From: Rhodococcus sp. W8901
Lineage (GTDB): Bacteria > Actinomycetota > Actinomycetes > Mycobacteriales > Mycobacteriaceae
Reading direction: 5' to 3'
NCBI RefSeq assembly: GCF_013348805.1
Contig: NZ_CP054690.1
Span: 1,426,001 to 1,490,000 of the forward strand
DNA length: 64,000 nt
The translations under genes were made by a program, and so were the position numbers. The notes below the pieces were generated by a model. The model did not search any database. It saw only the letters and a list, made by a program, of their open reading frames with translations, and was not told where the DNA came from. Positions 14,769-44,879 of the stretch are shown here, piece by piece. Positions within the stretch are counted from its first letter, which is position 1; each line of letters opens with the position of its first letter.

Positions 14769-14812
14769 TTCCGGATATCGGAAGACGGCACACAGTCTTC
14801 CGATATCCGGAA
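14769..14812. promoter_or_regulatory. 44-bp perfect inverted repeat between the MFS gene and the Rieske operon
   Basis: An 18-base arm starting TTCCGGATATCGG (14769-14786) is repeated exactly in reverse complement at 14795-14812, with an 8-base spacer. Each arm is itself nearly palindromic around GATATC, so the element could hold two dimer sites. It lies 86 bases upstream of the MFS start and 112 upstream of the Rieske start. The IclR-type regulator at 18428 is the obvious candidate binder (inference). There is no T tract, which speaks against a terminator. Confidence 0.7.
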
Positions 14813-32714: not shown

Positions 32715-32724
32715 CCCCGGCATA

Positions 32725-32760
32725 CGAGAACCGCCCGGTCGCAGGACCGGGCGGTTCTCG
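32725..32760. terminator. Bidirectional hairpin terminator between convergent genes
   Basis: A 16-base arm beginning CGAGAACCGCCC (32725-32740) pairs perfectly with 32745-32760 around a GCAG loop. It lies between the stops of the aldehyde dehydrogenase and the chorismate mutase. There is no T tract, as is common in actinobacteria. Confidence 0.75.
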
Positions 32761-32784
32761 TAGGACGTGTCGGTGCCGGTGAGG

Positions 32785-33413: not shown

Positions 33414-35927
33414 ATGAACACTATTTCCGGGTCCACGATCGGCGCTGCAGGTATGTCGTCAGGTATGTCGTCAGGTATGTCTCCGGGCGGTGCCCACGGT
33501 TCGACCGACGCCCTCCTCGACGGTCTCAATCCGCAGCAGCGAGAGGCCGTCCTGCACGCGGGATCGCCGCTGCTCATCGTGGCCGGTGCCGGGTCCGGCA
33601 AGACCGCGGTGCTGACCCGACGGATCGCGTACCTGCTGGCCGAACGCGGCGTGATGCCCGGCCAGATCCTGGCGATCACCTTCACCAACAAGGCCGCCGC
33701 CGAGATGCGCGAGCGGGTGGCCCAACTGGTCGGCCCCCGCGCCAACAGCATGTGGGTCTCGACGTTCCACTCGAGTTGCGTGCGGATCCTGCGGGCACAG
33801 TCGGCGCTGCTGCCCGGCCTGAACTCGAACTTCTCGATCTACGACGCCGACGACTCCCGGCGCCTGCTGACGATGATCTCCAAGGATCTGGACATCGACA
33901 CCAAGCGCTTCTCCGCGCGGCTGCTCGCCACGCACATCTCGAACCTCAAGAACGAGCTGATCGATCCCGAGGAGGCCGCGGCCACCGCGGACCGGGATCC
34001 GGCGGAGATGCCCAAGCTGGTGGCCCGGGTGTACGCGCACTACCAGCAGCGCCTGCGGGCCGCGAACGCGATGGACTTCGACGACCTGATCGGCGAGACC
34101 GTCGGGCTGCTGCAGGCGTTCCCCCAGGTCGCGGAGTACTACCGGCGCCGGTTCCGGCACGTGCTGGTCGACGAGTACCAGGACACCAACCACGCGCAGT
34201 ACGTGCTGGTTCGAGAACTGGTGGGGGAGGCCCCCGAGGGCGCTGTCGATCCGCACACGGTGCCGCCGGCCGAACTGTGCGTCGTCGGTGACGCGGACCA
34301 GTCGATCTACGCGTTCCGCGGGGCCACGATCCGCAACATCGAGGAGTTCGAGCGCGACTACCCGGACGCGCGGACCATCCTGCTCGAACAGAACTACCGG
34401 TCCACGCAGAACATCCTGTCGGCGGCGAACTCGGTGATCTCCCGGAACACCGGCCGCCGCGAGAAGCGCCTGTGGACCGACTCCGGCGAGGGTGAGCTCA
34501 TCACCGGGTACGTCGCCGACAACGAGCACGACGAGGCACAGTTCGTGGCGTCGGAGATCGACCGCCTGGTCGACGCCGGCGACGCGAAGTTCGGCGACGT
34601 CGCGGTGTTCTACCGGACCAACAACTCCTCGCGTGCGCTGGAGGAGATCTTCATCCGCCTCGGCATTCCGTACAAGGTGGTCGGCGGCACGCGGTTCTAC
34701 GAACGCAAGGAGGTACGCGACATCGTCGCGTACCTGCGGGTGCTCGCGAACGAGGACGACACGGTGAGCCTGCGCCGCATCCTCAACACTCCCCGCCGCG
34801 GGATCGGTGACCGCGCGGAGGCGTGCGTGTCGGTGTACGCCGAGCAGAAGGGGGTCGGGTTCGCGCAGGCCCTCCGCGCCGGCGCCGAGGGCGTCGTCCC
34901 GCTGCTGAACACCCGCTCCCAGAAGGCCATAGCATCGTTTCTCGAACTGATGGACGGGCTGCGGGCGTTGATGGTGAGCACCGACGCCGACGGCAACGAT
35001 CTCTCCGACATCGGTGAGATCATCGAGGCTGTCCTGGACCGCACCGGGTACCGCCGCGAGCTCGAGGCCAGCAGCGATCCGCAGGACGGCGCCCGGCTCG
35101 ACAACCTCAACGAGTTGGTCAGCGTTGCAAGGGAGTTCAGCTCCGACGCCCGCAACGCCGCAGCGTTCGCGGAGGACGAGTCCGCCGCCGGTGACGAGTC
35201 CGGCGAGGCCGGTGAACGCGACGACGAAGGCCTGCCCGACCCCGGTTCGCTGGCGGCGTTTCTCGAGCGGGTCTCGCTGGTTGCCGACTCGGACCAGGTA
35301 CCCGACTCGGGTGAGGGTGTCGTGACGCTCATGACGCTGCACACTGCGAAGGGGCTCGAGTTCCCGGTGGTCTTCGTGACCGGCTGGGAGGACGGGCAGT
35401 TCCCGCACATGCGCGCGCTCGGTGACCCGGCGGAACTGTCGGAGGAGCGCCGCCTGGCGTACGTCGGTATCACCCGCGCCCGGCACCGGCTGTACCTGAC
35501 CCGTGCGATTGTGCGCTCGGCCTGGGGGCAGCCGGTCACCAACCCGGAATCGCGTTTCCTGCAGGAGATTCCGGCGGATCTGGTGAACTGGCGCCGCGAG
35601 GATCCCGGCGTACTCGGTGCCGGTGGAGCCATCGGAGGTGGCCGGGCTCGCGGCCAGGGATACGGTGGATCCGGTTACAGCGGTTCGGGATTCGGCGGCG
35701 GTGGTGGCCGAGGGGCCGGTACGACGCCGAGCTTCGGCGCTCCCCGGGGGCGCAACAACAATCTCGTGCTCGCGGTCGGCGACCGGGTCAGTCACGACAA
35801 GTATGGGCTCGGCAAGGTGCTCGAGACGAAGGGTGCCGGACCGACCGCGACCGTGACGATCGACTTCGGTTCGGCGGGCAAGGTCCGCTTGATGCTGATC
35901 GGTGGCGTGCCGATGGTCAAGCTCTGA
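33414..35927 (+). CDS. pcrA: ATP-dependent DNA helicase UvrD/PcrA (UvrD1)
   Basis: An 837-residue superfamily 1A helicase that unwinds DNA 3'-5' in nucleotide-excision and other repair. Walker A is GAGSGKT at residues 58-64, motif II is VDEYQDTNHAQY, motif III GDADQSIYAFRGA, motif IV/IVa LEQNYRSTQNIL, motif V TLMTLHTAKGLEFPVVF and motif VI EERRLAYVGITRARHRLYL. The C-terminus has a Gly/Ser/Tyr-rich linker then a KVLETKGAGPTATVTIDFG-type domain that contacts RNA polymerase in PcrA. The N-terminus carries three in-frame ATGs in a 12-base repeat, so the exact start is uncertain. Confidence 0.96.
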   Translation: MNTISGSTIGAAGMSSGMSSGMSPGGAHGSTDALLDGLNPQQREAVLHAGSPLLIVAGAGSGKTAVLTRRIAYLLAERGVMPGQILAITFTNKAAAEMRERVAQLVGPRANSMWVSTFHSSCVRILRAQSALLPGLNSNFSIYDADDSRRLLTMISKDLDIDTKRFSARLLATHISNLKNELIDPEEAAATADRDPAEMPKLVARVYAHYQQRLRAANAMDFDDLIGETVGLLQAFPQVAEYYRRRFRHVLVDEYQDTNHAQYVLVRELVGEAPEGAVDPHTVPPAELCVVGDADQSIYAFRGATIRNIEEFERDYPDARTILLEQNYRSTQNILSAANSVISRNTGRREKRLWTDSGEGELITGYVADNEHDEAQFVASEIDRLVDAGDAKFGDVAVFYRTNNSSRALEEIFIRLGIPYKVVGGTRFYERKEVRDIVAYLRVLANEDDTVSLRRILNTPRRGIGDRAEACVSVYAEQKGVGFAQALRAGAEGVVPLLNTRSQKAIASFLELMDGLRALMVSTDADGNDLSDIGEIIEAVLDRTGYRRELEASSDPQDGARLDNLNELVSVAREFSSDARNAAAFAEDESAAGDESGEAGERDDEGLPDPGSLAAFLERVSLVADSDQVPDSGEGVVTLMTLHTAKGLEFPVVFVTGWEDGQFPHMRALGDPAELSEERRLAYVGITRARHRLYLTRAIVRSAWGQPVTNPESRFLQEIPADLVNWRREDPGVLGAGGAIGGGRARGQGYGGSGYSGSGFGGGGGRGAGTTPSFGAPRGRNNNLVLAVGDRVSHDKYGLGKVLETKGAGPTATVTIDFGSAGKVRLMLIGGVPMVKL
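33449..33484 (+). repeat. 12-base tandem repeat with three in-frame ATGs at the helicase N-terminus
   Basis: The unit AGGTATGTCGTC or a close variant occurs three times, giving MSSG-MSSG-MSPG in the protein. ATG codons lie at 33453, 33465 and 33477, downstream of the annotated ATG at 33414. Repeat copy number could vary without changing the frame. Confidence 0.7.
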
Positions 35928-36006
35928 CGCAACGAGGCCGGTCGGCAGGCTGGATATTCGACTCCGTGGCTGGGTTGCTTCTGGTCGGGGCTGCTCGGTA
36001 GGCAGG

Positions 36007-36394
36007 TCATCGCCTGAGGAGACCAGCGCGTTCGGCACGGTAGAGGATGTCTGCGCGATCGGCGCTCTGGAACTTCCGGTAGATGCTCTTCAGTCGGTAT
36101 TTCACGGTGTCCTGTGAGATGAACAGCTCGGCCGCCGCTTCCCGGGTGGTTCGCCCGTTTCGGAGTGCCTCGAGGGTGCGTCTCTCTGCCTCCGTGAGCG
36201 GGGGAACCAGCGACACCTGCAGCACTGCGGGCAGCCCGTCGAGGTTTCCCGGCACCCAACGGTCCGCGCAGGATGCGGAGCCGCGGCTGCCGGGCCTCAC
36301 CCTCGACCAGACGGATCACCCGGTCACGCACCAGCACCTGTGTACGAGCCTCGCGACTCGCACGGGAAAGCCGGCGTCCGGCATTCCCAATCAT
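36007..36394 (-). pseudogene. Collapsed LuxR/LAL-type regulator remnant
   Basis: The last 64 residues (from PPLTEAERRTLEALRNGRTT to RAERAGLLRR) are a complete LuxR helix-turn-helix, starting soon after the stop at 36007. In another frame just upstream on the same strand, 36394-36250 encodes TQVLVRDRVIRLVEG and LRGPLGAGK, the start and P-loop of a large ATP-binding LuxR regulator. The two are joined by a frame change with the whole NTPase and sensor region missing, which points to an internal deletion. A short intact LuxR protein read from 36300 is possible but would lack any sensor domain. Confidence 0.6.
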
Positions 36395-36571
36395 GCATGC
36401 ATACTCTCGGTCTCGGAGTTACCTTTCACCAGCACTCGTCAGGCGCCATCGCGGGTTGGCTGCGGCCGCACGACGGCCAGAAGTGTCAGGCCGCAGACCA
36501 ACCCGTGAACCTGGTCCGTGACGTGTCGGTGATGGACAGTTGAGACGCGCGCGGCTCGTTCAGATGTCCGA

Positions 36572-38008
36572 CTACTCGGCGCAGCCACTCGCCTCGAATG
36601 CGGACTTGGCCGTGTACTGTCCTTCCGGCAAGTACTGCCCCATGACGGCCTTTTCATCGCCGGGAGTCTCGGTATCATGCGCGGCATGGCTGAAGTCCTT
36701 GGACGGCAGCATGTTCCGCATGATCAGGAGGGAATCGTCGGGATGCCCGGCGCCATCGCCAGTCGGCGAGAGCGGCAGCCATGACACCCCGCACTCCTTG
36801 GTGGCATTTGAGGGTCGGTCTTCAGGCAGCGACGCGACGATTGTGTAACGACCGGCCGCATCAGTGGTCACCTGCTCGTCGTACAGGCATGCGATCACCT
36901 TCGTCGTTGCCAGTGATTCGTTGTTGCACATCGACCAGAACCGCATGTCGACATTGCCGTTCATATGCTGCGTGCCCGTCGTCGTCTTCGGAGTCCGCGG
37001 CAGTTCGCCACGAAGTACCAGAACGTCGCCGAACCCGCGGTTGACTTCGGCCGTGACGTAGCTGTTGTCGATGTTGGAGTACTGTCCGCCCACCCGCTGG
37101 GGTGTGCCATCACACTTGCCGAGATAGGTACACCCGAGAGTGAACTCGGCGCTGTAGTAGGCCCGCCACACAGGTGTCTGGTCCGCAGGGAATGTCGCCG
37201 GCTTGCCCGGCTGGTCGCGCAGAGCCTTGTACGTGTCCAGCGGCAGTGGAGTGGGCTTCAAGATCGCATTGTCCGCGTCGACCGCCGAACACAGTGCTTC
37301 GCCGCGCAGCACCTGACCGTCGGCGAGGTGCAACTCTGGATCCGGTAGTCCTACGCCGCCGGTGAGATCACGTCCATTGTCGGGAAGGTAAATGCGGTAG
37401 AGGAGGCTGATCCGATCCTGTCCTGGCACACCGGCATACAGAGTGTTGTGTCGCGGCTCAGCCGGCGGCGTCTCGTCGAGCACAGAGACCGTATACGACC
37501 TGCCGTCTTCATTCAGACGGTCGGCGCCCGGAAGATAGGTGTTCTGCGAACCGGCGTCCGGGGCGGTCGAAATGTCGTTGAGGACGGCGGTCGGCATCGC
37601 GGTGCCGGCGTTGTACGAGTTCAACGACTGGTAGCGCGCGTGCGCGTACTGCCCCCGGATGACCAGTTCGGCATCCTCCGGGATAGTGAACTGCGCAGCC
37701 CAATAGACCGCCGCGGTGTCGGGGAAGGCGTAGTTGAGCTGCGGGTCTGCGAGCTCGGGATTGACTGGCACGGACCAGAAGCAGGTCGACACCGGATACT
37801 CGGGATCGGGGCCGCTCGAACCGGGATCGACGGATCCGAATCCGGATCCGCTCGACGAGCCGAGATCGACGGACCCGAATCCGGATCCGCTCGACGAACC
37901 GAGATCGGCCGATCCAATCGCCGGCGCAGCGACCGCGGACCCGGTCCCGGGCAACGCTGTGATCGCGGTCAGCGCCGCCGCAGCTACGAACGTTTTCAAT
38001 GAAGGCAT
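36572..38008 (-). CDS. Secreted protein with N-terminal GS-rich repeats, DUF1214-like
   Basis: A 478-residue protein with a Sec signal peptide (MPSLKTFVAAAALTAITALP, cleavage likely after AVAAPA). Two 13-residue copies of GSxDLGSSSGSGF and a partial third follow, then a long globular part. PEDAELVIRGQYAHARYQSL and ISLLYRIYLPDNGRD resemble the DUF1254/DUF1214 type, and the protein ends near GSGCAE-like cysteine sequence. Several cysteines (STCFWS, FTLGCTYLGKCDG, SMCNNES, IACLYDE) suggest disulfides, as expected outside the cell. Function unknown. It lies downstream of the DUF1254 gene on the same strand. Confidence 0.75.
   Translation of the reverse strand: MPSLKTFVAAAALTAITALPGTGSAVAAPAIGSADLGSSSGSGFGSVDLGSSSGSGFGSVDPGSSGPDPEYPVSTCFWSVPVNPELADPQLNYAFPDTAAVYWAAQFTIPEDAELVIRGQYAHARYQSLNSYNAGTAMPTAVLNDISTAPDAGSQNTYLPGADRLNEDGRSYTVSVLDETPPAEPRHNTLYAGVPGQDRISLLYRIYLPDNGRDLTGGVGLPDPELHLADGQVLRGEALCSAVDADNAILKPTPLPLDTYKALRDQPGKPATFPADQTPVWRAYYSAEFTLGCTYLGKCDGTPQRVGGQYSNIDNSYVTAEVNRGFGDVLVLRGELPRTPKTTTGTQHMNGNVDMRFWSMCNNESLATTKVIACLYDEQVTTDAAGRYTIVASLPEDRPSNATKECGVSWLPLSPTGDGAGHPDDSLLIMRNMLPSKDFSHAAHDTETPGDEKAVMGQYLPEGQYTAKSAFEASGCAE
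37838..37915 (-). repeat. Two 39-base tandem repeats in the secreted protein
   Basis: Residues 32-44 and 45-57 are near-identical copies of GSxDLGSSSGSGF, and a degenerate third copy begins at residue 58. The DNA copies are also close to identical, so this is a recent or maintained tandem duplication. Confidence 0.7.
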
Positions 38009-38232
38009 CTCGCTCCTTGTGAGGTGGCTGACGAATTGTGGTAGATCCCCGTTCAGGTCTGTCTCGCACGCGCTCGGTCCTCTGACGAGGTTGCCGGAAG
38101 AGCGGTGCTCGGCGAGGGGACGGTGCTGCTGGGCGGTATGAGTGACGGCGACTTGTGAAGGGCACCAACTCCAGTGGTGTCTGCGCGGGCCTGGGTATCG
38201 ATGGTGAGTCCGAGTGGGATCGCATGCCGGTG

Positions 38233-38253
38233 CTGCCCCACCCGGTGGGGCAG
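38233..38253 (-). terminator. Hairpin downstream of the DUF1254 gene
   Basis: CTGCCCCACC (38233-38242) and GGTGGGGCAG (38244-38253) pair around one base, in effect a 3-5 base loop. It lies 16 bases past the stop of the DUF1254/DUF1214 gene on the - strand. There is no T tract. Confidence 0.4.
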
Positions 38254-38268
38254 TGGCCCCGCTCCCCG

Positions 38269-39210
38269 CTAGAGCGCTTCGGGACGCGGCGCCGTCCAGG
38301 TGCCGTCGAGCACGGAGGGCCGGGGGCGGTACAGCCGCAGCACGTAGTTCCAGCCCGGCATGATGGGCAGGGCGTTCGCGACACCGTCGAGGTGTACGCC
38401 GAAGCGGATGGTGGTACCGCCGTCGGCGTCGGGGGTGGCGGTGAGGCTGTTGATGCTGTTCACGCCCAGGGCGTTCTCCTCGAAGTAGCCGGCCGCGTTG
38501 TACAGCGACACCGACCAGAACGCATCCACCGGAACGTCGTTCAGACGGAGACGGTATTCCGCGACAGGGAGGCGTTCGTCGACGCTGACGTAGGTGGCCT
38601 CCTGTTCAGGGAGGCCACCCCAGCCGGAGGCGGTGCCGAGCAGGTGCATGATCGGATCGACTTCTGCTGCGGTGCCGAATGATCGGTCGTACTTGCTGAC
38701 GCCGCGAGCGAGTGCGAGGATCGCGTCGCGGGTCTCGTTCTGCGACTGCTCGTCGTAGCCGGGCAACGGGAACTCGCCTGTTCCGCCGCCGTCGATGGCG
38801 AGGACGTCCTGCAGCCGGTTCACCTCGGCGACGTCTTCGGGGCTGTTCGGATCGACGAGGATGCGCACGATGAGTGCGGCGTAGTCGGTCCCGACCAGTT
38901 CGCGCGTGAGCACGTGCTCTCCCGGATCGCGCAGGATGACCGGACCGTAATGATCTTGACTGATCACCCACACGGAGATGTAGCGCTTGCCGGTATCCGG
39001 CACCGTGATCGTGACGTCTTCGCACACGTCGATGATGCTGCTGCTGTACAGGGTGTCGCGGTTCTGGCGGATGATCGGCTGGTTGTCGAGCGGCTCGAGC
39101 TCACGAGTGTGGTTCCAGGTGCCCAGGCCGCCGCCCGCGGCCAGGCGAGCGAACATGAGATCGGATTCTGCCCGATTGAAGTTCAGGATGTTGACGGGAA
39201 TCGCGGACAT
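38269..39210 (-). CDS. DUF1254/DUF1214 domain protein
   Basis: A 313-residue cytoplasmic protein. The DUF1254 part has IIRQNRDTLYSSSIIDVCED and ITVPDTGKRYISVWV, and the DUF1214 part has DVPVDAFWSVSLYNAAGYFE and PRPSVLDGTW near the end. No signal peptide is present, unlike its neighbour at 36572. The ATG at 39210 is chosen because GGAAC lies 5-7 bases ahead; another ATG at 39222 is in frame. The family has no established biochemical role. It is 63 bases downstream of the SHOCT operon on the same strand and may share its transcript. Confidence 0.82.
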   Translation of the reverse strand: MSAIPVNILNFNRAESDLMFARLAAGGGLGTWNHTRELEPLDNQPIIRQNRDTLYSSSIIDVCEDVTITVPDTGKRYISVWVISQDHYGPVILRDPGEHVLTRELVGTDYAALIVRILVDPNSPEDVAEVNRLQDVLAIDGGGTGEFPLPGYDEQSQNETRDAILALARGVSKYDRSFGTAAEVDPIMHLLGTASGWGGLPEQEATYVSVDERLPVAEYRLRLNDVPVDAFWSVSLYNAAGYFEENALGVNSINSLTATPDADGGTTIRFGVHLDGVANALPIMPGWNYVLRLYRPRPSVLDGTWTAPRPEAL

Positions 39211-39273
39211 GGCGGGTTCCATTCGGTGTCGGGTACGGCACGGGAGCGGGTATCCCTCGCCCCGTCGGGGAAT

Positions 39274-39582
39274 TCAGCCGAGCAGTCGCGCTTTCGCGGC
39301 TTCGAACTCGGCATCGCTCAGCAGGCCTTGTGATTTGAGATCGCCGAGTTTCTGCAGCTCGGCGACGAGATCGACCGGGGCAGCGGGCGCGCGTGTGGTC
39401 ATCGCGCGTGCTGCCTGCTGCTGGGCCAACTCGTACTGGGCCTGCTCGTACTCGGCCTGGGCCCTTCGCTGCCGGCGGGTGGCCATACCGTCGCTGACGG
39501 CGGTCGCGGTACCGGTCACGATCGCGGTGCGCGCGGCAAGGCCCAGCAGTCCGGGGCGACCGGTTCTCGGGATGAAGGGCAT
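39274..39582 (-). CDS. SHOCT-domain protein
   Basis: A 102-residue protein. The C-terminal SHOCT motif is DLVAELQKLGDLKSQGLLSD followed by AEFEAAKARLLG, which is clear. The N-terminus has a short hydrophobic/small-residue stretch (GLLGLAARTAIVTGTATAVS) that may associate with the membrane, and a Gln/Tyr/Ala-rich linker (EYEQAQYELAQQQ). SHOCT domains are short oligomerisation or targeting modules. The stop of the upstream DUF6325 gene is 2 bases before this start, so they are co-transcribed. Confidence 0.85.
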   Translation of the reverse strand: MPFIPRTGRPGLLGLAARTAIVTGTATAVSDGMATRRQRRAQAEYEQAQYELAQQQAARAMTTRAPAAPVDLVAELQKLGDLKSQGLLSDAEFEAAKARLLG

Positions 39583-39583
39583 G

Positions 39584-40036
39584 TCAGACCTCCAGTTTCG
39601 GGGTGATCGTGTCCATGAGGGCGTTGACGATCGGGGCGGGAATCCGCTCGTAGCCCAGTAGCACCGCGCCCGACTCGGCGGTCCGGGCGGCGAGCTCACG
39701 CTGATAGACCAGCTCGAGCGCGACCAGCAGCGCCGCAGCGCCGGCGGGGATCGCCGCCGCGAGTTCGGTGATGTCTTCATGCCCGAGGAGACCGGACGCG
39801 CCGAGCATCTCGACATTGATCTCGAAGCCGTTCGGCAACTCCTCGACCTCGATGAGGGTGAGTTCGCCGTCCTCGGACTTGGAGATGACGATCAGATCGA
39901 GCAGCTGCACCAGGCCGGTATCTGCAAGGTCGGTGAGCGCGGAGAGTGCGGCCGGGTCGAGGCTCTCCCCGGGCAGGCCGAGAAGATAGAAGTCGACAGG
40001 TCCGAAACGCGCAGCACTCACCACGTCGCCGCTCAC
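39584..40036 (-). CDS. DUF6325 family protein
   Basis: A 150-residue protein with FGPVDFYLLGLPGESLDPAA near the start, ADTGLVQLLDLIVISKSEDG, LLGHEDITELAAAIPAGAAA and LVYQRELAARTAESGAVLLG. This matches my memory of DUF6325, small proteins found beside SHOCT-domain genes in actinobacteria. The helix IPAGAAALLVALELVY is hydrophobic. The GTG at 40036 overlaps the TGA of the upstream PLDc_N-SHOCT gene (GTGA), showing translational coupling. A longer frame to 40294 is antisense sequence. Function unknown. Confidence 0.75.
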   Translation of the reverse strand: MSGDVVSAARFGPVDFYLLGLPGESLDPAALSALTDLADTGLVQLLDLIVISKSEDGELTLIEVEELPNGFEINVEMLGASGLLGHEDITELAAAIPAGAAALLVALELVYQRELAARTAESGAVLLGYERIPAPIVNALMDTITPKLEV

Positions 40037-40407
40037 GAGAGGACCTTCAGCTTCAGTGCGGTGAACTCGTCCTCGTTGATGGCTCCTGCTTCGAGGAGTG
40101 CTGCGGCTGTGGCGATCTCCTCGCTGGGGCTCTTCCCTGCGACCTCGCGGATATACGATTCGGCAGCGTTCTCCGCGTCGCGTGCGGCCTTGTTGCTGCG
40201 TTCCGTCATCCCTTCGCCGCGGGCGACGAGATAGACGAGCGCTGTCACGATGGGCAGGAAGAGCAGGAAGAACACCCAGAGGGCCTTCAACCAACCGTTC
40301 AGCTTATGGTCGCGGAACAGGTCGGCGATGATCGCGAACAGCGCGAAGAGATATCCGATGAAGACGGTCGCCGACAGCATCCAGCCGAGGCTTTCCCAGA
40401 AGTTCAT
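40033..40407 (-). CDS. PLDc N-terminal/SHOCT membrane protein
   Basis: A 124-residue protein with two transmembrane helices (SATVFIGYLFALFAIIADLF and KALWVFFLLFLPIVTALVYL), the FRDHKLNGWLKALW loop typical of the phospholipase D-nuclease N-terminal (PLDc_N) membrane module, then a cytoplasmic coiled part and a C-terminal SHOCT motif (AAALLEAGAINEDEFTALK). It resembles toxin-immunity or stress membrane proteins of this class. It is first of the coupled trio with DUF6325 and the other SHOCT protein, and its two SHOCT partners may assemble with it (inference). Confidence 0.85.
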   Translation of the reverse strand: MNFWESLGWMLSATVFIGYLFALFAIIADLFRDHKLNGWLKALWVFFLLFLPIVTALVYLVARGEGMTERSNKAARDAENAAESYIREVAGKSPSEEIATAAALLEAGAINEDEFTALKLKVLS

Positions 40408-40480
40408 GTGTGTTGTCCGATTCGTGTAAGGGGCCGCGGGGTTCGCGGCCGATTGATGAGGGAGAGTGGCGAAGCAGAGG

Positions 40481-41158
40481 TCAGAGGGAGGCGATGGCCT
40501 TGCCGAGGATGAGTGCCGCCATGAATGCCATGAGTACGGTCATGACCACGTTGTTCTCGCGGACGAGCCACCGGTGCAGGGCATCCAGCGGTCCCCGGAG
40601 CTGCTCTGAAGCGACGATGAACGCCGAGACCAGCACCCACACCGTCGAGGTGGCGCACAGGACGAAGACCCCCGTCGCGATACTTGCCGGGAGGGCGGCG
40701 AGACCGGCGTCTCCGATGGTCACTCCGGCGCTCGCGGCGATGAGGAGGTTCTTCGGGTTGAGTGCCGAAAGCAGGAGGCCGAGGCCGAATGCGCGCTTCA
40801 ACGTGAAGCCGTCGATGGCGGCCATCCATTTCGGGAGTGCGGGATCCACGCCGGGCTTCGGTCGGCCTCGCCATTGCCTGACCGCGAGCAGCAGCAACAG
40901 GGCCGAGAGCAGGAGCTGCACGATTACACGCGGCACGTTCGATCCACCCGAGTCGCCGTGGGGTGTGAGCAGGCCGGCGAGCAACACGAACGCCGTCACC
41001 GCGATGGCGATCCCGAGGATCCAGCCGATCAGGAATCCGGGGCCGGTGCGGCGAGCGCTCGAGGAAAGCAGCATGAGAATGGCCGCGATGATCGTGAAAG
41101 GGCTGATCGCGATGCCAAGCGCGAGCGGCAGCGTCTCCCCGATGACAGAACCCAACAT
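40481..41158 (-). CDS. GAP-family (Sap-like) integral membrane protein
   Basis: A 225-residue protein with six predicted transmembrane helices. It starts MLGSVIGETLPLALGIAISP and repeats the family pattern in FLIGWILGIAIAVTAFVLLA, FTLKRAFGLGLLLSALNPKN and SIATGVFVLCATSTVWVLV. The GAP/LysE-related family includes the M. tuberculosis sulfolipid-1 addressing protein Sap, which helps export glycolipids. GGGGAAC precedes the ATG; the longer frame to 41512 is not needed. It lies 73 bases upstream of the PLDc_N-SHOCT gene and probably heads the transcript, with a lipid or small-molecule export role as inference. Confidence 0.85.
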   Translation of the reverse strand: MLGSVIGETLPLALGIAISPFTIIAAILMLLSSSARRTGPGFLIGWILGIAIAVTAFVLLAGLLTPHGDSGGSNVPRVIVQLLLSALLLLLAVRQWRGRPKPGVDPALPKWMAAIDGFTLKRAFGLGLLLSALNPKNLLIAASAGVTIGDAGLAALPASIATGVFVLCATSTVWVLVSAFIVASEQLRGPLDALHRWLVRENNVVMTVLMAFMAALILGKAIASL

Positions 41159-41169
41159 GGTCAGTTCCC

Positions 41170-41379
41170 CTACGTAGCAGTCGCGTCGGTGGGAGCGGTT
41201 GCGAGTTCGGCGACGGAGGCCCGGTTCGTCGGGTGGATCGGATCTCCTTCGCGCACGACCTCGAAACGGCCCAGCCGCGGAAGCGCGCCGCTGCGCACCC
41301 AGCTGAACGCGAGCAGCGTGACTCCGGCAAGGAACTCCCGCCCGACATTCCGCCGGCTCAACCCGGCAATTCCGTTCAT
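41170..41379 (-). CDS. Possible 69-residue hypothetical protein
   Basis: An ORF on the operon strand immediately upstream of the GAP-family gene, 11 bases from its start. It encodes MNGIAGLSRRNVGREFLAG followed by a weak hydrophobic stretch (VTLLAFSWVRSGAL). No Shine-Dalgarno site is seen and I do not recognise it, so it may be a 5' leader rather than a gene. Confidence 0.35.
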   Translation of the reverse strand: MNGIAGLSRRNVGREFLAGVTLLAFSWVRSGALPRLGRFEVVREGDPIHPTNRASVAELATAPTDATAT

Positions 41380-41416
41380 TGCGGCAATTCTCGCCGGTTC
41401 CTGCAGGCTTCGATCG

Positions 41417-41443
41417 CGGTCTCATCCGCAGCGGATGAGACCG
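41417..41443. promoter_or_regulatory. 27-bp perfect palindrome upstream of the TPR-LuxR regulator
   Basis: CGGTCTCATCCGC (41417-41429) is the exact reverse complement of GCGGATGAGACCG (41431-41443) with a single A at the centre. A one-base loop makes an RNA hairpin unlikely, so a protein-binding site is favoured. It lies 14 bases before the ATG at 41458 and 38 bases before the minus-strand ORF at 41379. Confidence 0.7.
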
Positions 41444-41457
41444 GATTTCTATGGCCG

Positions 41458-42963
41458 ATGAATGCTCGTCTCGAGTATCTTCGACACATGATCGAAGCCG
41501 TGCGTGAGGCACTCGCCTCCGGTGAGGCAGAGCAGGCTCGAAGCGTCCTACGGAAGAACTGGCTCCGTCTGATTCTCGAATCTCACACGAGGGAACTCGA
41601 GCAGCTCTGCCTTGCCCATCCTGATCCGCACGACCCGCACATCCTGCTGATACGGGCGTGCTGCCGCGACCTCAGTGGCGACCCGTACGGTGCGGAGTTT
41701 CTCCGCGGACAGGGTTTACGGGTTGCGTCTGACGATTTCGTCGTCTGCTTCACTGACCTGCTGCTCGCTCCAGACTCCTCGACCAAGGCCGTCATCGCCG
41801 ATCGCGCGCGCCACGCGCTCGCCCAGTGCGAACCGGAGGACGATTACCCATCCGCGCTTTTCCTCCTCGGATGGACCGAGGTCAGGCTTCGTCGTGATCT
41901 CCCTCGTGCTATCGCGCTACTTCGCTCCGCCAGCGATGAGGCGCAGTTGCAGTCGCGTGCGGAGACGTTGCGTCTCGCGCAATCCAATCTGGCCTTTGCG
42001 CTCACCCACGCGGGAGCATTCACCGAAGCCGAACAGATCCTCGACGGGCTCCCTTCCAGGGAGGTGGCGTCCGACTGGGAACGCTTCGAAGGTGGTCTCC
42101 CACAGTCGAATCGAGGGTGCATCGCTTTCTGGCGCGGCGACTTCGAGGAGGCGATAGCTCACTTCGACTCCGTCATCGTAGAGGGCAGCCCCGGAACCAA
42201 CTTCGAGGCGCTCGCCCGTCTCTACTTGGTGATGAGCCTGATCGCTCTGAACCGGGAAGACCGATACCACACCGCGGCGCGTTTGCTGCGAGGCGTGAGC
42301 ACTGCGGACAAGCATGGCATTCCTTGGGATACGCTGCGGCGCGTCACCACGGCCTGGCTCGCCCACGCGCAAAGGCAGGACGAGCAAGCTCGCCGTATCG
42401 CCAGGCCTGTTCTTACCCGCACAGGTGCTGCGGTTGCTCATGCGCTTCTCGCGGAACTCTATCGAGTCTTGGGGGATCCGGAACCGTCGGCTCGAGCGCT
42501 TCGCCTCGCAACATCGGCCGGGCTGCCGCGATATGCGCTGGTGAGCACACTCGTCACCTCAGCCGCACTGAACTCCGTATCAGGGCATGGTCTCCAAGCG
42601 CATGAGCAGCTGGATCGTGCGCTGGAGGCTGCACTCCCCGAACGGATTCTCGCCCCATTTCTCTCTGACGATCCGGTGATTGTCGATCTCTTGAACGCTC
42701 ACGCACTACGGGGGTCGAGACATCACGAGCTCTTGTGCACGATCCTGGAACGACGGAACCAACTGTCGGTACTCCTCGCGGGAGTCCTGACGGAACGAGA
42801 AAAGGAGATACTCACATATCTGCGTACCGCGATGACTGCAGATGAGATCGCAGCGCACCTCGGCATCGCTTACCCCACGGTGAAGACGCACATTCGCTCG
42901 ATCTACCGCAAGCTGGGCGTGACCAAACGTCGTGCTGCTGTTCAAGCAGCCGACAGCAGATAG
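41458..42963 (+). CDS. LuxR-family regulator with TPR-like helical repeats
   Basis: A 501-residue protein. Most of it is helical repeats of TPR type (ALFLLGWTEVRLRRDLPRAI, LAQSNLAFALTHAGAFTEAE, GCIAFWRGDFEEAIAHFDSV, VAHALLAELYRVLGDPEPSA). The last 60 residues are a LuxR helix-turn-helix: LTEREKEILTYLRTAMTADE, IAAHLGIAYPTVKTHIRSIY and RKLGVTKRRAAV. There is no N-terminal P-loop, so it resembles the back half of MalT/LAL regulators. One TTA leucine codon (41716) is unusual for this genome. It is divergent from the SHOCT operon. A palindrome lies just upstream of its start. Confidence 0.85.
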   Translation: MNARLEYLRHMIEAVREALASGEAEQARSVLRKNWLRLILESHTRELEQLCLAHPDPHDPHILLIRACCRDLSGDPYGAEFLRGQGLRVASDDFVVCFTDLLLAPDSSTKAVIADRARHALAQCEPEDDYPSALFLLGWTEVRLRRDLPRAIALLRSASDEAQLQSRAETLRLAQSNLAFALTHAGAFTEAEQILDGLPSREVASDWERFEGGLPQSNRGCIAFWRGDFEEAIAHFDSVIVEGSPGTNFEALARLYLVMSLIALNREDRYHTAARLLRGVSTADKHGIPWDTLRRVTTAWLAHAQRQDEQARRIARPVLTRTGAAVAHALLAELYRVLGDPEPSARALRLATSAGLPRYALVSTLVTSAALNSVSGHGLQAHEQLDRALEAALPERILAPFLSDDPVIVDLLNAHALRGSRHHELLCTILERRNQLSVLLAGVLTEREKEILTYLRTAMTADEIAAHLGIAYPTVKTHIRSIYRKLGVTKRRAAVQAADSR

Positions 42964-43155
42964 GTTGCGGGGCGGTCCGACTCGTCAACGGAGTACTTCA
43001 ACGGGGGCGCACTCGGCGGGTAGAAACGCGGGTAGTGGTTTCGGCTTCCTCGCCGCGACGCCTCGGACCGATGATCGTCGGAGGGCAAACCCATTATTGT
43101 TCCGAGAACACCGGGTAGTCGCCGGGTGGCTCGACTGATCAAGGAGACACGACGT

Positions 43156-43569
43156 ATGCGTCTGCTGTTCCAGCTCTTTTCGCAATGCGTACTCGGTGTG
43201 GTGGCGTTGATCGTGGTGCATTTCGTTTTACCCGGGGTGGATCTGAGCTTCACCGGATTCTTCGTGGCAATCGGCGTATTCACCTTGGCCCACATGATTC
43301 TCGGCCCGTTCGTGCTCAGCGTGGCGCAGCGCTATGCCGCTCCGCTTGCGGGTGGTATCGGGCTGGTCGCCACGCTGCTCGCGCTGTGGGTTGCATCCCT
43401 GTTCCCCGATGGCATTCAGATCAGCGGCGTCCAGTCTTGGATCTTCGCACCGATCATTGTCTGGGTGATCACGGCACTCGGCGGGTGGATCTTCATGGCC
43501 TTCGTCATCGACAGGTGGCTCAAACGACGCAGTGCAGAGAAGCTCGTGCGCAGTGTGAATCAGGCGTGA
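43156..43569 (+). CDS. Small holin-like four-helix membrane protein
   Basis: A 137-residue protein with four transmembrane helices (FSQCVLGVVALIVVHFVLPG, FTGFFVAIGVFTLAHMILGP, LAGGIGLVATLLALWVASLF and WIFAPIIVWVITALGGWIF). The short charged tail (RWLKRRSAEKLVRSV) and size fit phage-holin-family/superfamily IV membrane proteins common in actinobacteria. AAGGAG lies upstream of the ATG at 43156; an earlier in-frame start at 43126 lacks it. A TTA codon at 43228 is notable. Function unknown. Confidence 0.72.
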   Translation: MRLLFQLFSQCVLGVVALIVVHFVLPGVDLSFTGFFVAIGVFTLAHMILGPFVLSVAQRYAAPLAGGIGLVATLLALWVASLFPDGIQISGVQSWIFAPIIVWVITALGGWIFMAFVIDRWLKRRSAEKLVRSVNQA

Positions 43570-43711
43570 CGGTTGATACTGCTCCTTGTCGCAGCAGTGC
43601 TGACCGTGGCGATCGTCCTCGTCGGTGTCGCGCGGTTCGACGGTCCCTCACAATTGCCTCCACGCTCCGCCGAAATATCTTGTCCTGGAACCAACCCAGT
43701 AGGAGTCAGCT

Positions 43712-44515
43712 ATGACCGCTCACCCGCTCGACCGTCGTGTTCTCCTGAAGAGTGCCCCGAACTTCCGTGACCTCGGCGGTATTCCCGTTGCATCCGGCAC
43801 CGTCCGCCCGGGCGCGCTGTACCGCTCGGCGACGCTCGCGAAGCTCGACGACGACGACCTCACCGCATTCGAGGTCCTCGGTGTCGCAACTGTGTACGAC
43901 TTCCGCACCGCTGCCGAGCGCGACGGTGCCTTCGATCGCCTTCCCGACACGGTGCGTACGGTCTGGCTCGACGTGCTGGCCGACAATGCCCAGAACGCCG
44001 CGGCCACCGGACTTCTCATGACGGACCCGGTCGCATACGCCGGGACGATCAACGACGGGCGCGGGATCGGGCAGATGGAGGAGGCGAACCGAAACTTCGT
44101 CAGTTTGCCCTCAGCGCTGAGCGCATACCGCGCGTTCTATCTCGACCTGATCGACGAGAAGCGTGCCGGGGCTGCCCTCTTCCACTGCACCACCGGCAAG
44201 GATCGCACCGGATGGGCCGCGACTTCCTTCTTGCTCCTCCTCGGCGCCGACGAGACCGACGTGCGCGCCGATTACCTCGAAACGAACACCGATCTGGCGC
44301 CCATGACCGATCCGATCCTCGCCTTCGTCGAGAGCAAGGGTGTCGACCCGGAGCTGATCCGTCCTCTCCTCGGTGTCCGTGAGAGCTACATCGATGCCGC
44401 TCTCGACGAGATGCGCACCCACTTCGGCACCGTCGAGGACTACGCGCGTGACGGGCTCGGACTCACCGCCGAGCAACTCGCGACGCTGCGCGAGCGGTTC
44501 ACGCAGTCTTCGTAG
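43712..44515 (+). CDS. PtpB-like tyrosine/lipid phosphatase
   Basis: A 267-residue phosphatase. NFRDLGGIPVASG and ALYRSATLAKLDDDDL lie near the start, DFRTAAER follows, and the P-loop reads LFHCTTGKDRTGWA with the nucleophile at Cys159, then the lid VRESYIDAALDEMR. The HCxxGKDRTG form groups it with MptpB-type and lipid phosphatases rather than classical low-molecular-weight PTPs. TAGGAG precedes the ATG. There is no signal peptide. It is at the end of the accessory region, so a role in signalling or phospholipid turnover is inference only. Confidence 0.88.
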   Translation: MTAHPLDRRVLLKSAPNFRDLGGIPVASGTVRPGALYRSATLAKLDDDDLTAFEVLGVATVYDFRTAAERDGAFDRLPDTVRTVWLDVLADNAQNAAATGLLMTDPVAYAGTINDGRGIGQMEEANRNFVSLPSALSAYRAFYLDLIDEKRAGAALFHCTTGKDRTGWAATSFLLLLGADETDVRADYLETNTDLAPMTDPILAFVESKGVDPELIRPLLGVRESYIDAALDEMRTHFGTVEDYARDGLGLTAEQLATLRERFTQSS

Positions 44516-44879
44516 AAACATCCAGTCGGAGTGGGTCGCACAGCGCGGGAACCGATTCGCCCCAGCCGATTGCCGGTGTCGTCGAGGGCTGCACTCAGGA
44601 TCCGTTGCGACACTGTAGAAGTCGGCCGGTGGGCGCAGTACGGCTCGAACGAGATTTCGGTTCGGAACCCAGTTCCCTGCTCCAGGGTTCGCCTCGGGTC
44701 GAACCGACGACGAGTGTCCGACGGGGCCCACTCGTCCACGCCCTCATCGGTGCGGGCGCTGCAGGAGCTTTCCTGAATCGTGAGCAACCGCAGAGGCGTT
44801 CGAGCGGGCCGGTCGCCGGGGACGGGCTCGGCACGTCCGCTCAGTGTGGTGACGCAGGCCGTGATCGTGGGATCGAGCG
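44516..44879. other. Intergenic region without recognisable genes
   Basis: 364 bases between the phosphatase and the end of the M23 peptidase gene. Short open frames on both strands look like shadows and none has a Shine-Dalgarno site or a family motif. No clear terminator hairpin was found. Confidence 0.6.

Follow-up and report, generated by a model that had tools for sequence, protein, structure and literature searches.

A mobile LuxR-linked membrane gene cluster in Rhodococcus with a possible tie to sulfate esters

The closest described relatives of the gene cluster analysed here, which lies in a 64,000-nucleotide stretch of the Rhodococcus sp. W8901 genome (contig NZ_CP054690.1; this whole stretch is called the window, and its features are given in its own coordinates), are the LAL/MalT-type AAA-TPR-LuxR regulators, the GAP/Sap (SfLAP) lipid-addressing proteins, the SdsA1-type alkylsulfatase loci and the membrane systems linked to phage shock proteins (PSP) and SHOCT domains. 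Sap (Rv3821) is reported to enhance surface sulfolipid-1 (PMC6463170). For SHOCT-like domains, a second source predicts membrane anchoring and an association with PSP partners (PMC11237479), and the paper naming SHOCT contains an oligomerisation test of one construct, with a negative result (PMC3581485).

The regulator of the present cluster has the TPR-like region and the C-terminal GerE helix-turn-helix (HTH) of the LAL/MalT-type proteins but not their N-terminal AAA domain. Its GAP protein scores far above the PF11139 cut-off, yet no MmpL, polyketide synthase or lipid-biosynthesis family was matched among the nine cluster proteins scanned, and relatives of this protein often adjoin a SulP gene instead. 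A DUF6325-SHOCT gene pair directly precedes an SdsA1-type alkylsulfatase gene in the same genome and in three others, whereas the window has no alkylsulfatase hit. SHOCT proteins with membrane partners recall the PSP/SHOCT-linked systems, but PspA, PspC and Toastrack had no match among the eight cluster proteins scanned. A preceding sequence-only reading of this DNA had called the system undescribed, which agrees with the open-licence literature (subscription papers fall mostly outside this scope), where we found no mention of DUF6325 and none of SHOCT together with Rhodococcus; DUF1269 and SHOCT together were not found in the open-licence literature searched either. As far as searched, the component families are each known and their combination and regulation are undescribed. 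To our knowledge, no function has been established for the DUF6325, SHOCT and DUF1254/1214 families.

We tentatively read the cluster as a mobile, self-regulated membrane module, drawn from an actinomycete gene set that would be tied to sulfate esters or other anions. This reading, built on sequence comparison, is the one we prefer while stopping just short of calling it probable, and we infer the substrate from the company that the genes keep. Sulfate esters include detergents, and sulfatases cut them.

Gene content, conservation and regulator

Genes were identified from open reading frames and Pfam gathering cut-offs, and transmembrane segments from a simple hydropathy-window scan. The reading frames and Pfam matches bear out the minus-strand gene set proposed in the sequence-only reading, divergent from a TPR-LuxR regulator gene (41488..42963, plus strand; GerE 54.8 bits, cut-off 23.5). 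This set encodes a GAP/SfLAP-family membrane protein (40481..41158; PF11139 130.7 bits, cut-off 35), a PLDc_N protein that has two hydrophobic segments and ends in a SHOCT-like stretch (40033..40407; PF13396 24.9 bits, cut-off 23.3), a DUF6325 protein with a GTG start (39584..40036; PF19850 187.8 bits, cut-off 23.4), a small SHOCT protein, SHOCT2 (39274..39582; PF09851 32.1 bits, cut-off 27), and a DUF1254/DUF1214 protein (38269..39222; 39.3 and 48.2 bits; PF06742 and PF06863 both above cut-off). The tight coupling that had been described holds for the GTGA overlap between the PLDc_N/SHOCT and DUF6325 genes, while the gap from the DUF6325 stop to the SHOCT2 start is one base and not the two claimed. 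Only SHOCT2, among the two supposed SHOCT proteins, exceeds the Pfam cut-off; the C-terminal SHOCT match of the PLDc_N protein (20.7 bits, E 3.5e-4) lies below the cut-off of 27.

The limits first given to the unit (38269..41443) proved too narrow. The genes of a PF04020 (Phage_holin_4_2) multi-transmembrane protein (43126..43569, plus strand; 29.8 bits, cut-off 28.8) and of a Y_phosphatase3 protein with an HCTTGKDR motif (43712..44515, plus strand; PF13350 208.3 bits; PtpB structure 1ywf, E 2.7e-14) are co-located with it in 8/8 orthologous loci, and by this comparison the PF04020 and MptpB-like phosphatase genes are part of the cluster. The hydropathy scan gave three products the appearance of membrane proteins, namely GAP (six hydrophobic segments, with a sub-threshold Pfam match to LysE as well), PLDc_N/SHOCT and PF04020. 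A structure model of DUF6325 reached a predicted local distance difference test (pLDDT) of 84.0 and a predicted template modelling score (pTM) of 0.72.

Regulator matches at E <= 1e-40 were present in 14 of 301 Mycobacteriaceae genomes, with 84-100% identity in eight and 32-41% in the remaining matches. The eight close orthologues belong to the same genus (G000, which is the genome of the window, G002 and G008), to genus g23 (G116, G129, G268 and G282) and to genus g6 (G179). The regulator, PLDc_N/SHOCT, DUF1254/1214, PF04020 and Y_phosphatase3 genes stand together in all eight loci, so that the linkage proposed from the single sequence is kept in relatives. The six operon genes are co-directional in the g23 loci, whereas the window has its PF04020 and phosphatase genes behind the regulator. 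The PLDc_N/SHOCT and DUF1254 genes overlap directly in the G179 locus (L107, 9459-10786), and because of this the DUF6325-SHOCT2 pair behaves as a clean two-gene cassette. The G002 cluster contains an extra PLDc_N/SHOCT gene and an unnamed 471-amino-acid (aa) protein with six hydrophobic segments (L031, 10442-13175), relatives of which occur in 6 of the 25 test loci described below.

The regulator start kept in relatives is the ATG at 41488 rather than that at 41458. The TPR matches of the protein are marginally below the Pfam cut-off and its C-terminal GerE HTH is above it. Its match to an 832-aa AAA-TPR-LuxR relative covers residues 331-829 of the latter (40% identity, 502 columns); the longer protein is encoded elsewhere in G008, where LuxR, GAP and DUF1254 genes also stand in a row. 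This relative has an AAA_22 match at 9-142. Since the alignment covers only residues 331-829, the AAA part is absent from the window regulator, and the open frames of the eight island copies (492-605 aa) are too short to include it. On these alignments, the window regulator is related to the LAL/MalT-type AAA-TPR-LuxR proteins, minus their AAA part. A family of 66-88-aa proteins, present in 14/25 test loci (for example L162 12652-12876 and L170 2368-2601), lies next to the LuxR gene in 11 of 12 gene-called loci that have it; the single member scanned had no Pfam match, and these small proteins may be partners of the regulator.

The island and its palindrome

The cluster sits in a genomic island of about 8.9 kb (35928..44860, right border approximate), inserted between two genes whose 3' ends face each other, one for a UvrD/PcrA-type helicase and one for an M23 peptidase. 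The same two genes are separated by 85, 92 and 83 bp in the same-genus genomes G003, G013 and G002, respectively, and the spacer of these empty sites shows an inverted repeat; in the window and in G008, this spacer is replaced by the ~8.9 kb holding the cluster. G002 carries its cluster elsewhere in the genome. By this comparison the cluster lies in an island that is absent from that site in three genomes of its own genus. G+C content is 0.643 in the island and 0.685 in the window as a whole. No integrase was noticed in the island, no search aimed at integrases having been made.

Silent positions argue for movement of the cluster between lineages. Between the window and G116, identity at fourfold-degenerate sites was 82% for PLDc_N, 79% for DUF1254, 78% for DUF6325, 76% for SHOCT2, 69% for PF04020, 68% for LuxR and 58% for the phosphatase, a value not clearly above the most constrained background genes. 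The background was 46% for the helicase gene and 36-54% in 21 of 23 genes, the two succinyl-CoA ligase genes reaching 72% (24 rows, of which 35429-35962 was dropped because its frame overlaps the helicase gene). With the three remaining g23 genomes, cluster values ranged from 53% (phosphatase, G268) to 93% (PLDc_N, G282), compared with 41-46% for the helicase and 64-70% for the first ligase gene. The flanking helicase is presumably PcrA and we take the ligase genes to be sucC/sucD; the families found were UvrD-helicase and CoA-ligase/ATP-grasp.

The 27-bp palindrome that had been noticed between the operon and the regulator is indeed there, perfect, at 41417-41443, and reads CGGTCTCATCCGC-A-GCGGATGAGACCG. 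It is the sole palindrome in the window with 13-bp arms and a spacer of 0-3, none being found in 30 first-order Markov windows, and it is unique in the 5.71-Mb genome when up to three mismatches among its 24 fixed bases are allowed. The conserved core is TCTCATCC-N5-GGATGAGA, whose half-sites are invariant at 16/16 positions over the eight loci, compared with a mean of 5.92/8 at 98 other intergenic positions. The exact core occurs in 8/301 Mycobacteriaceae genomes, at one place each, and these are the same eight that hold the close regulator orthologue; as site and regulator are neighbours, this co-distribution alone is weak proof. A core with one mismatch occurs in 6 of the remaining 293 genomes (G011, G034, G080, G106, G137 and G152) and at one additional place in each of G129 and G268. 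These two additional places, about 20 kb from the cluster, were discounted, as G152, a genome without a regulator match, has them too. A role of the palindrome as a genome-wide regulon site was rejected, the exact core being present once per genome.

The palindrome is the presumed operator of the regulator. The sequence TATCTT (41476..41481, plus strand), presumed to be the -10 element of the regulator gene, ends six bases before the ATG, starts at -12 and is the same in 8/8 loci, a position that suggests a leaderless transcript. On the other side, an AATTCTC block (41386..41392; GAGAATT on the minus strand), invariant at 7/7 positions over the eight loci, is a possible -10 element of the divergent operon. 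If so, the palindrome could lie about 50 bases upstream of that start too, as a shared operator in an activator position. With a single exact operator per genome, the island offers a small, clean regulon for testing the logic of the regulator.

Gene company, proposed role and alternatives

The link to sulfate esters comes from neighbours of related genes. We examined 25 test loci (380 kb, 21 genomes), which had been selected for relatives of the regulator, GAP or DUF6325 close together, 16 of them (L170-L185) for prior linkage, and used SulP and sulfatase family models built from loci of this same set; 15 of the loci had a SulP match, 7 an arylsulfatase match and 4 an alkylsulfatase match. In 197 kb of control sequence, made up of ten regions around the helicase gene, there was no SulP, arylsulfatase or alkylsulfatase and one LuxR hit. 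The genome of the window carries a second DUF6325-SHOCT pair (L040 6115-8821; G000:C1 near 3.293 Mb), followed on the same strand by the gene of a 636-aa alkylsulfatase with an HxHxDH motif and near full-length matches to PSdsA (4nur, E 1.6e-203) and SdsA1 (2cfu, E 1.5e-169); this locus also has a convergent gene for a 434-aa LuxR (GerE) protein. The same-strand order DUF6325-SHOCT-alkylsulfatase recurs in four of the 20 wide DUF6325 loci (own genome, G001 and G008, of its genus, and G033). An arylsulfatase of L048 matches 1hdh (E 6.4e-70).

DUF6325 itself was found in 98/394 sampled genomes of the class and in 17/61 relatives. Among the 55 best-scoring DUF6325 loci, three island copies included, a SHOCT gene lies within 250 bp downstream in 48; the same short stretches contain PLDc_N/SHOCT in 13, LuxR in 7 and GAP in 5. 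Positions were then mapped in 40 genomes chosen for holding DUF6325, giving 68 places for GAP, 37 for the nearest regulator relatives (E <= 1e-10) and at least 134 for SulP, with gene fragments merged by hand. In the counts that follow, which leave out the own genome (39 genomes), the expected numbers assume uniform placement and ignore relatedness. Regulator relatives lie within 10 kb of DUF6325 in 13/35 cases (expected 0.25) and within 10 kb of GAP in 7/35 (0.31), while 8/64 GAP genes lie within 5 kb of DUF6325 (0.22). Among the SulP matches listed, at least 17/64 GAP genes, in 16 genomes, are within 2 kb of SulP (0.22), at least 10/35 regulator relatives within 5 kb (0.27) and at least 13/58 DUF6325 genes within 5 kb (0.42). 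Among the compared loci, the best-matching GAP relative from outside the clade (57% identical) belongs to a co-directional SulP-GAP-DUF6325-SHOCT-GAP series in L118 (G622), a DUF1254/1214 relative (50% identical) adjoins LuxR and GAP in L108, and a SulP gene lies 4.2 kb from a third DUF6325-SHOCT pair of the own genome (2.239 Mb). SulP of L048 matches SLC26/SulP structures. Genes called in 28 loci (three island copies; L048 and L170 overlap) and in the window showed recurring extra families: SulP-STAS, a ~780-aa sulfatase, AI-2E permease, DUF7144, alkylsulfatase, an unnamed ~75-aa protein and an unnamed ~440-aa membrane protein.

In the mechanism that we propose, the regulator would bind the palindrome as a dimer and would activate the divergent operon as well as its own leaderless promoter. 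GAP would act in the membrane as an exporter or lipid-addressing protein, with PLDc_N/SHOCT and PF04020, and perhaps also DUF6325 and SHOCT2, as accessories associated with the membrane, and with the DUF1254/1214 protein and the phosphatase as soluble partners. The operon would equip the membrane to handle sulfate esters, similar anionic amphiphiles, or their sulfate and lipid products, the island being a variant that would have retained the regulator and the membrane part while carrying neither SulP nor sulfatase itself. It is also conceivable, though we hold this broader proposal with less confidence, that actinomycetes possess an undescribed membrane system for sulfate esters or anionic amphiphiles, made of a LAL-type LuxR regulator, DUF6325-SHOCT, GAP, SulP and optional sulfatases, of which the window would contain a mobile version with a stripped-down regulator and a single operator, spreading among Rhodococcus-type genomes. 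Tying DUF6325-SHOCT to GAP, SulP, sulfatases and one regulator clade would turn "function unknown" into a testable role.

Several observations, in addition to the choice of loci, the origin of the models and the placement assumption given above, weigh against this proposal. The 64-kb window had no match to the SulP, arylsulfatase and alkylsulfatase models, and for this reason the sulfate link rests on relatives only. No alkylsulfatase adjoins 16 of the 20 wide DUF6325 loci, 22 of 35 regulator relatives are farther than 10 kb from DUF6325, and 45/58 DUF6325 genes have no SulP within 5 kb among the matches listed. The SulP example tested is below the NCBI cut-off for sulfate permease, and SulP-type proteins are not all sulfate carriers. 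Within the cluster, GAP is present in 3/8 orthologous loci, limited to the same-genus copies, and missing from the other five, and DUF6325-SHOCT2 occurs in 7/8, being absent solely from G179. Against this last genome, the fourfold-site identity of the cluster is 53-63%, with a background mean of 47% and a maximum of 64%, and transfer to G179 is weakly supported. As for the membrane part, the hydropathy scan showed no transmembrane segment in SHOCT2 and a single hydrophobic stretch in DUF6325, and comparison of the DUF6325 model with the PDB yielded no confident match. The regulator's binding to its presumed operator is putative.

Among the alternatives, the cluster might encode a general phage-shock-like complex for envelope stress, in which SHOCT and PLDc_N proteins recruit DUF6325 and others, with PF04020, to stabilise the inner membrane, and the sulfate link is incidental. 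The three membrane-like products fit this explanation, as do the membrane anchoring and the association with PSP partners predicted for SHOCT-like domains (PMC11237479), but it accounts for neither the SulP nor the sulfatase neighbours, and it has to face the lack of PspA, PspC and Toastrack matches in the eight proteins scanned. The sequence-only reading had likewise taken the shared SHOCT domains to indicate an assembled complex, a proposal left unsupported by one SHOCT match below cut-off, a SHOCT2 protein scoring no transmembrane segment in the hydropathy scan and the negative oligomerisation result for one construct (PMC3581485), which counts against the envelope-stress account too. We regard envelope stress as unlikely, while placing it above homeostasis of anions, pH or osmolarity, in which SulP would move bicarbonate or other anions, GAP would export a small solute in the manner of LysE and the regulator would sense the ionic state. 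Homeostasis would suit the sub-threshold LysE match of GAP, the DauA and BicA models that the SulP example also matches below cut-off, and the AI-2E-type permeases, mechanosensitive channel, LtrA and P-type cation ATPase of some loci; aryl- and alkylsulfatases recurring in the same loci are nevertheless hard to explain by ion balance, and we consider this account improbable.

The remaining alternatives concern the palindrome and the mobility of the island. A terminator, or another element unrelated to the regulator, would agree with the hairpin-terminator pattern called at 41417-41443 on the plus strand (one of 2, compared with a mean of 2.2 in shuffles), and with the differing distances to the regulator ATG, which count against an operator as well: the palindrome centre is at -54 in six loci, at -58 in the window and at -43 in G179. 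The G179 shift, however, amounts to 11 bases, about one DNA turn, the T-rich tail is weak, the palindrome is upstream of both divergent genes, and its inner half-sites are invariant whereas the outer arm bases differ between loci with no compensating change. We consider a terminator or other unrelated element very unlikely. A mobile, patchy, regulator-linked island with membrane proteins could also recall anti-phage defence, but nine proteins gave no PADLOC match apart from two weak ones to the regulator HTH, and the relatives adjoin transport and sulfatase genes, leaving defence with hardly any credit.

Other features of the island and loci

Besides the cluster, the island carries on its minus strand the gene of a 478-aa passenger protein (36572..38008) with a signal-peptide-like N-terminus, as judged by eye. 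The protein is also present in G008 and near the G002 copy and was not found in the compared stretches of G282 and G179; near-identical repeats close to its N-terminus (37800-37920, minus strand) encode GSGFGSVD-like stretches. The island also contains what is left of a second large LuxR regulator, a C-terminal HTH remnant (36007..36300, minus strand). The corresponding genes in L030 and L031 were called at 828 and 897 aa, respectively, and the L031 product matches AAA_22, TPR_MalT and GerE. Among other DUF6325 loci, a DUF6325-LuxR fusion considered in G485 was rejected, as the matches lie in open frames of different length. In L122 (7259-10463, G588), Pfam matches place a chalcone/stilbene-type polyketide synthase, a methyltransferase and an FAD-binding protein after DUF6325/SHOCT, and the same families (F31-F33) occur in L183 (G656). 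Elsewhere in the window, two hairpins with 18-bp perfect arms (14769-14812 and 32723-32762) are probably terminators.

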